From Clostridiales bacterium (GTDB lineage Bacteria > Bacillota > Clostridia > Oscillospirales > JAAYOS01), in assembly GCA_012520195.1 (NCBI GenBank), contig JAAYOS010000014.1, positions 1 to 48,056 on the forward strand: a stretch of DNA of 48,056 nucleotides. Reading direction: 5' to 3'. A program made the translations under genes and the position numbers. Positions 2,957-47,990 of the stretch are shown here, piece after piece. The stretch's first letter is position 1. Each line of letters begins with the position of its first letter. The notes beneath the pieces are model-generated. The model ran no database searches and was not told the origin of the DNA. It saw only the letters and a program-made list of their open reading frames with translations.

Positions 2957-3122
2957 CCGATCCCAAACATTTAATCGCTGTTGATGAACCATCTTTGTCT
3001 CTTGATGCCTCATGTCTCATAATGCCTCATTCTGCTATGAGTTGATCACCTTACGCAACTTTATCATCGACTTTATCCTTAAGCTCATTCGCCAGTTCTC
3101 ATGACAGATTTTCTCTTGTTTT
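2957..3122. other. Gene-free stretch before the 120-bp repeat
   Basis: No supportable gene. The only visible structure is a pair of ATGCCTCAT nine-mers (3005-3013 and 3022-3030). The 120-bp palindromic repeat begins directly after it. Confidence 0.5.
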
Positions 3123-3242
3123 TGCGCAAAAATCGAAGTGTTGTGTGAATCCTAGCGAAAATTTATCACATCGATGAGATAAATATACGGTGTATGATAT
3201 CTTTCCAGAGAGAAATCCACACAGAACCGAATATTTTGCGCA
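3123..3242. repeat. 120-bp imperfect palindromic element, copy 1
   Basis: Bounded by TGCGCA at both ends. The outer arms pair (TGCGCAAAA with TTTTGCGCA, then TTGTGTG with a CACACA segment). The centre is a 22-bp near-perfect palindrome of the form TTTATC-A-CATCGATG-A-GATAAA. A second copy of exactly the same length lies at 47871-47990; aligned without gaps, about 96 of 120 positions match by eye. It lies in a gene-free region and has no open frame. The organisation recalls ERIC/REP-type intergenic repeats or a small MITE, but no family is recognised. Confidence 0.8.
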
Positions 3243-3312
3243 AAAAGAGCCAAAAAAGCGTTTTGCTTGTTATGACAGGCTTGACGGACTTTACGAGCTT
3301 GACAGGCCTGAC

Positions 3313-15386: not shown

Positions 15387-15535
15387 TCGTTTTGAATTTT
15401 TGTGTGCCAGCATAGGTGTGTTGCATTCAGTATGAGCTAAATCAGTTATAATAATTCCTTTTAATACTGTACAAAACGCAAAACATTGTGTAAAATAGAG
15501 GTAATGTAAGAAATTTTCATAACTGGTAGAACAAA

Positions 15536-15591
15536 AGAACTAGAACAACAGAACTAGAACAACAGAACTAGAACAACAGAACTAGAACAAC
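15536..15591. repeat. 14-bp tandem repeat (AGAACTAGAACAAC) x4
   Basis: Four perfect units at 15536-15549, 15550-15563, 15564-15577 and 15578-15591, followed by a partial unit. They sit in the leader or promoter region of the methionine sulfoxide reductase gene, ending 35 bases before its start. Confidence 0.9.
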
Positions 15592-15626
15592 AGAATAAGA
15601 AGTTGGCAATACTTAGGAGAGATTCA

Positions 15627-47695: not shown

Positions 47696-47841
47696 ACCTC
47701 CTAACCCACCTCCTAACCCACCTCCTAACCTCCTAACCTCCTAATCCCCTAACCTCCTAATCTCTTTATCTCTTAATCTCCTTATCTCCTTATCTCCTTA
47801 TCTCCTTATCTCCTTATCTCCTAACCATCTTATCTCCTTAT
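47696..47841. repeat. 8-bp periodic tandem array, SD-like on the minus strand
   Basis: Two 12-bp ACCTCCTAACCC units, three ACCTCCTA units and later five perfect ATCTCCTT units (47776-47815), joined by degenerate units, almost all in 8-bp register. On the minus strand it reads TAGGAGGT / AAGGAGAT over and over, i.e. a train of ribosome-binding-site-like motifs. It lies upstream of the pyrR promoter and has no gene. Confidence 0.85.
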
Positions 47842-47870
47842 GGAGTGCAGAAATGAAAAAACGTAAAAAA

Positions 47871-47990
47871 TGCGCAAAAATTGAAGTATTGTGTGAATTC
47901 AAGCATAAAAATATCACATTGATGAGATAAATATGTGGTGTATGAGATATTATTAGAAGGAAAACCACACACAACTCAAGATTCTGCGCA
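47871..47990. repeat. 120-bp imperfect palindromic element, copy 2
   Basis: Same length, orientation and TGCGCA ends as the copy at 3123-3242, with about 80% identity by hand count. The inner palindrome keeps GATGAGATAAATAT exactly. Pairing of the outer arms is kept (TTGA with TCAA, TTGTGTG with CACACAA). Weaker similarity continues about 19 bases to the right (AAAAAAG). Confidence 0.8.

Follow-up and report, generated by a model that had tools for sequence, protein, structure and literature searches.

The REP/BIME elements are palindromic extragenic repeats associated with RAYT (Y1) transposases. The enterobacterial repetitive intergenic consensus, known as ERIC or IRU, is an imperfectly palindromic sequence of 127 bp found in dozens of intergenic copies (PMC2229807, PMC10969869), while the Correia/NEMIS elements (CREE) of Neisseria are high-copy intergenic repeats with terminal inverted repeats of about 25 bp and two length classes (PMC2229807). 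The RUP element of the pneumococcus, which has 107 bp, is mobilised by IS630-Spn1 (PMC2229807).

A repeat of this general kind is present in the stretch of DNA analysed here (the window, 48,056 nucleotides), which is contig C29 of a 2.45-Mb draft genome of an uncultured Clostridiales bacterium (209 contigs, 96% complete). The preliminary description of the window reported two 120-bp copies in the same orientation, with TGCGCA ends and about 96 of 120 bases matching, and this was confirmed by alignment: each copy has exactly 120 bp with TGCGCA at both termini, the starts lie 44,748 bp apart, and 96/120 positions (80%) are identical without gaps (E = 4.5e-25). The copies and their ends are as follows.

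3123..3242, + strand: copy 1, a 120-bp member of the family, with the A end on the left, between convergent genes
3123..3149, + strand: A-end box of copy 1, TGCGCA-N13-TGTGTG, match to the end pattern
3215..3242, - strand: B-end box of copy 1, TGCGCA-N13-TGTGTG, match to the end pattern
47871..47990, + strand: copy 2, likewise a 120-bp member, which lies 66 bp from the end of the contig, near an 8-bp minisatellite
47871..47897, + strand: A-end box of copy 2, match to the end pattern
47963..47990, - strand: B-end box of copy 2, match to the end pattern

The outer arms of copy 1 are complementary over 32 nt (3119-3150 with 3215-3246, 72%). The 8-bp minisatellite (CTCCTTAT/CTCCTAAC, window 47698-47849) directly adjoins copy 2, short tandem repeats are also found near several other copies (L007, L011, L012, L036, L050, L054), and a 14-bp tandem repeat of AGAACTAGAACAAC-like units occupies window positions 15513-15601, just ahead of an ORF at 15603.

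To list the family, the genome was searched at the DNA level and with a degenerate pattern for the ends, and the sequence profile built from the results was then run on the genome. The end pattern TGCGCA-N13-TGTGTG has 98 matches, against four for a reversed control, and the profile search recovered about 40 copies in this genome, 36 of them complete, below which the score drops cleanly. The dispersed family of fixed length that had been proposed from two copies is thus borne out with about 40, many further copies having been found by the whole-genome search. Thirty of the complete copies have exactly 131 bp, five have 120 bp, a class that includes both window copies, and one has 121 bp (L005); of the remainder, two run off the ends of contigs (C63, C207), one, on C49, is partial and another, on C170, is composite. 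Of 37 copies examined, none lies across a confidently called gene, the calls being those of a simple codon-periodicity model built for this analysis. The element is short (a core of 120-131 bp, below 200 bp), non-coding, multi-copy and intergenic, as is expected of a MITE. The viral contigs searched hold no copy.

Within the family, about ten copies form a close subfamily in which several hundred bp are shared and whose flanks contain repeats. A second intergenic repeat, made of tandem AACTTATTTGAGCCTTAC-like units, recurs beside this subfamily (L050 1757-1955; left flanks of L031, L055 and L057), as does a right-end block, TTTCATTTAATATTACAACT. Upstream of rplU (L063 / G000:C49:15533-15810), the partial copy, which covers model positions 1-91 and is lengthened by a GATGCGGAGGGT repeat, stands in tandem with a complete copy.

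The core is bounded by two inward-facing ends of 25-28 bp with the pattern TGCGCA-N13-TGTGTG, which form terminal inverted repeats (about 73-82% of the end pairs are complementary, G-U included). Read from the A end, it consists of TGCGCAaAAATCGAAGTAaTGTGTG, a variable stretch, CTTTTATGCGGtATAcGtTATAgAATATgC.GTGTaC.AtATATCA and then the B end, CACACA.AACTCaAgATTcTGCGCA, and its centre holds two direct copies of GTRYACCGCATA on the other strand, 21 bp apart, as read by eye from the alignment. At least nine copies have a third box, placed 50 bp outside the B end. In the 131-bp copies, a further stretch of conserved sequence lies outside each end, of about 30 bp at the A end and about 18 bp at the B end. 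Given this, the coordinates first assigned to the window copies hold for the conserved core but not as the limits of the element.

In its imperfect palindrome, its length of about 120-130 bp and its dozens of intergenic copies, the element is similar to ERIC, which differs in having TA motif ends and target-site duplications, neither of them found here, and which belongs to another phylum, with no sequence relation shown. Correia/NEMIS elements share the inverted ends, the two discrete lengths set by an internal block, the intergenic position and the many copies, but they have TA ends and target-site duplications, and their classes lie 50 bp apart, whereas here the step measures 11 bp and the search for duplications found none. 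RUP is likewise a short intergenic repeat of fixed length with inverted ends (PMC2229807), but in this genome no IS630-type (DDE_3) transposase was detected and no TA target was seen. The element is palindromic and extragenic like REP/BIME, from which it is set apart by its much greater length and the fixed spacing of its two ends, and no Y1_Tnp protein was found in the genome. No TA pair occurs at the TGCGCA edges, where the flanks are A/T runs. Since the TA ends and duplications that mark ERIC, Correia/NEMIS and RUP are lacking, the element belongs to the general kind of dispersed small intergenic repeats rather than to those families. A literature search directed at Clostridia returned no paper.

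What distinguishes the family is the constancy of its length. Across the thirty 131-bp copies and one orthologue from a sister species, 436 substitutions were counted by parsimony and not one indel; the alignment needs no gap, even though identity among these sequences ranges from 56 to 97% (median 76%). This strongly supports the earlier suggestion of selection on a fixed length, which is no artefact of how the copies were found, as the profile search permits indels. The ratio of indels to substitutions was calibrated on nine related copies, whose cores are 6.5% diverged with 0 gaps, against 12-17% divergence and 0.09-0.15 gap openings per substitution in their flanks, a contrast that is strong but qualitative because pairwise counts are not independent. 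Between the 131- and 120-bp classes lies a step of 11 bp, close to one turn of the helix, and a change of about this size is the only one found in more than one copy; these two length classes, beside which stands the single 121-bp copy L005, suggest that the core is helically phased. Hundreds of changed letters in a sequence whose length has almost never changed suggest a selected, protein-bound DNA site and not decaying junk.

The orthologue provides a separate view of this constraint. Nine other genomes of the same GTDB family, one of them congeneric, gave no copy in the profile search, and a scan of 84,980 GTDB species genomes with the exact paired end boxes, on contigs over 3 kb, found a single contig, DUPE01000232. 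Its copy lies upstream of a gene that we take to be ylxP-like (DUF503), in the same place as copy C2 of the genome studied here; as its assembly holds a second, weaker match to the ylxP-like protein, the contig may be misbinned. The two cores are identical at 113/131 positions without gaps, and no other copy is as near to either, whereas 26/64 four-fold sites differ in the two neighbouring reading frames (Fisher p = 5e-5 against the core), so that the core has changed three times less than these sites. Aligning the intergenic DNA around it takes gaps of 100-200 bp or larger. The core is therefore constrained in place, in both sequence and spacing, at this one orthologous locus on a possibly misbinned contig. 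The sister contig also has an ORF resembling a serine recombinase (L066 1068-2648), whose end lies about 320 bp from the element; this contig may include an integration or be a chimera.

One account of such a family is an ordinary MITE: the element would be a non-autonomous transposon without function for the host, and only the transposase that moved it would have constrained its length and ends. We consider this possible, if somewhat doubtful. It accommodates the roughly 40 copies with inward-facing, imperfect inverted ends of 25-28 bp that read 5'-TG...CA-3', the close subfamily with cores about 93% identical, the avoidance of DNA near start codons and the loci without the element in the congeneric genome. 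However, conserved sequence continues past the ends, and the target-site duplications that the preliminary description had suggested looking for were not found at any offset: a scan of 25,200 settings gave none at the core edges (best z 4.5), where the left flank of a copy resembles its own right flank no more than that of another copy. Some transposase families leave no such duplication. A search for four Pfam transposase families (Y1_Tnp, DDE_3, DDE_Tnp_1 and rve) found no mobiliser with the ends of the element in this draft, which may miss insertion sequences; Y1, DDE_3 and DDE_Tnp_1 gave nothing, and neither of the two rve matches carries these ends. As to the empty sites, also suggested for inspection, the element is lacking at rplU and rpe in the congeneric genome (G001), but the extra DNA at these loci in the genome studied here is about 430-520 bp rather than 131 bp, with edges that could not be aligned. 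Constraint in place after speciation would also be unexpected for a dead copy. A MITE or ERIC-like repeat is the closest comparison, while a simple recent MITE insertion finds no support, given that neither duplications nor, among the four families searched, a matching transposase were found and that the boundaries are unsharp.

A structured RNA, in which the transcribed core would form a long stem enclosing hairpins and serve, as ERIC or NEMIS does, to set mRNA stability, appears quite unlikely. In its favour, the folds of single copies are better than those of dinucleotide-shuffled sequences (z -3.4 to -5.5), hairpins in the same register are perfect in copy L012, and the genes on the A side tend to point away from the element (20/29, p = 0.06). 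On the other hand, the percentage paired in the named structure is about equal to that of its shuffles, the RNAalifold consensus reaches just -5.7 kcal/mol, and loops would tolerate indels, yet none is present. The preserved pairing noted where the copies differ is real for the two window copies but does not hold for the family at large, columns 12-14/118-120 (same strand) being mispaired in 27/30 of the 131-bp copies; no column pair family-wide exceeds a tree-aware null (best E = 3.5), and the covariation expected under selection on RNA structure was thus not found. A tree-blind scan for excess pairing had placed a few helices, with about 50% of cells paired, slightly above a column-shuffle null, which the tree-aware test did not uphold. 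In the window, no Rfam family matches at gathering score. A promoter or operator common to a regulon, which would explain the fixed architecture with conserved internal boxes, is very unlikely indeed: the distance to the start codon varies from 197 to 1091 bp across copies and differs even between the orthologues at ylxP (257 and 468 bp), some copies, including copy 1 of the window, lie between convergent genes, and the adjoining genes are functionally unrelated housekeeping genes (rplU, nusG, typA, asnS, rpe and others). Unrelated neighbours and a variable spacing argue against a promoter that depends on distance.

The explanation that we favour, with moderate confidence, is that of a lineage-specific MITE- or ERIC-like dispersed repeat whose spread lies in the past and whose core would now be maintained as a paired, helically phased, putative protein-binding DNA site. 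A transposase, or some other means of copying, would have dispersed the family through the genome. Each copy may now have a bound protein, which could be the former mobiliser or else a nucleoid or regulatory protein, and which would contact the two end boxes as well as the pair of central GTRYACCGCATA direct repeats, spaced 21 bp apart. As such contacts would require fixed helix faces, substitutions would be tolerated and single-base indels would not. The mode of movement, the binding partner and the function proposed for the element are what we infer from the sequences.

A further-reaching and unlikely version would see in the roughly 40 copies a genome-wide system of helically phased DNA platforms, selected for both sequence and exact length, through which a single DNA-binding protein would organise or regulate the chromosome in this clostridial lineage. 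The usual view of small intergenic repeats is that they are selfish DNA in decay. Given hundreds of substitutions, the absence of indels in the main length class and constraint in place across species, this family offers a clean case for asking whether small repeats become domesticated as protein-binding sites.
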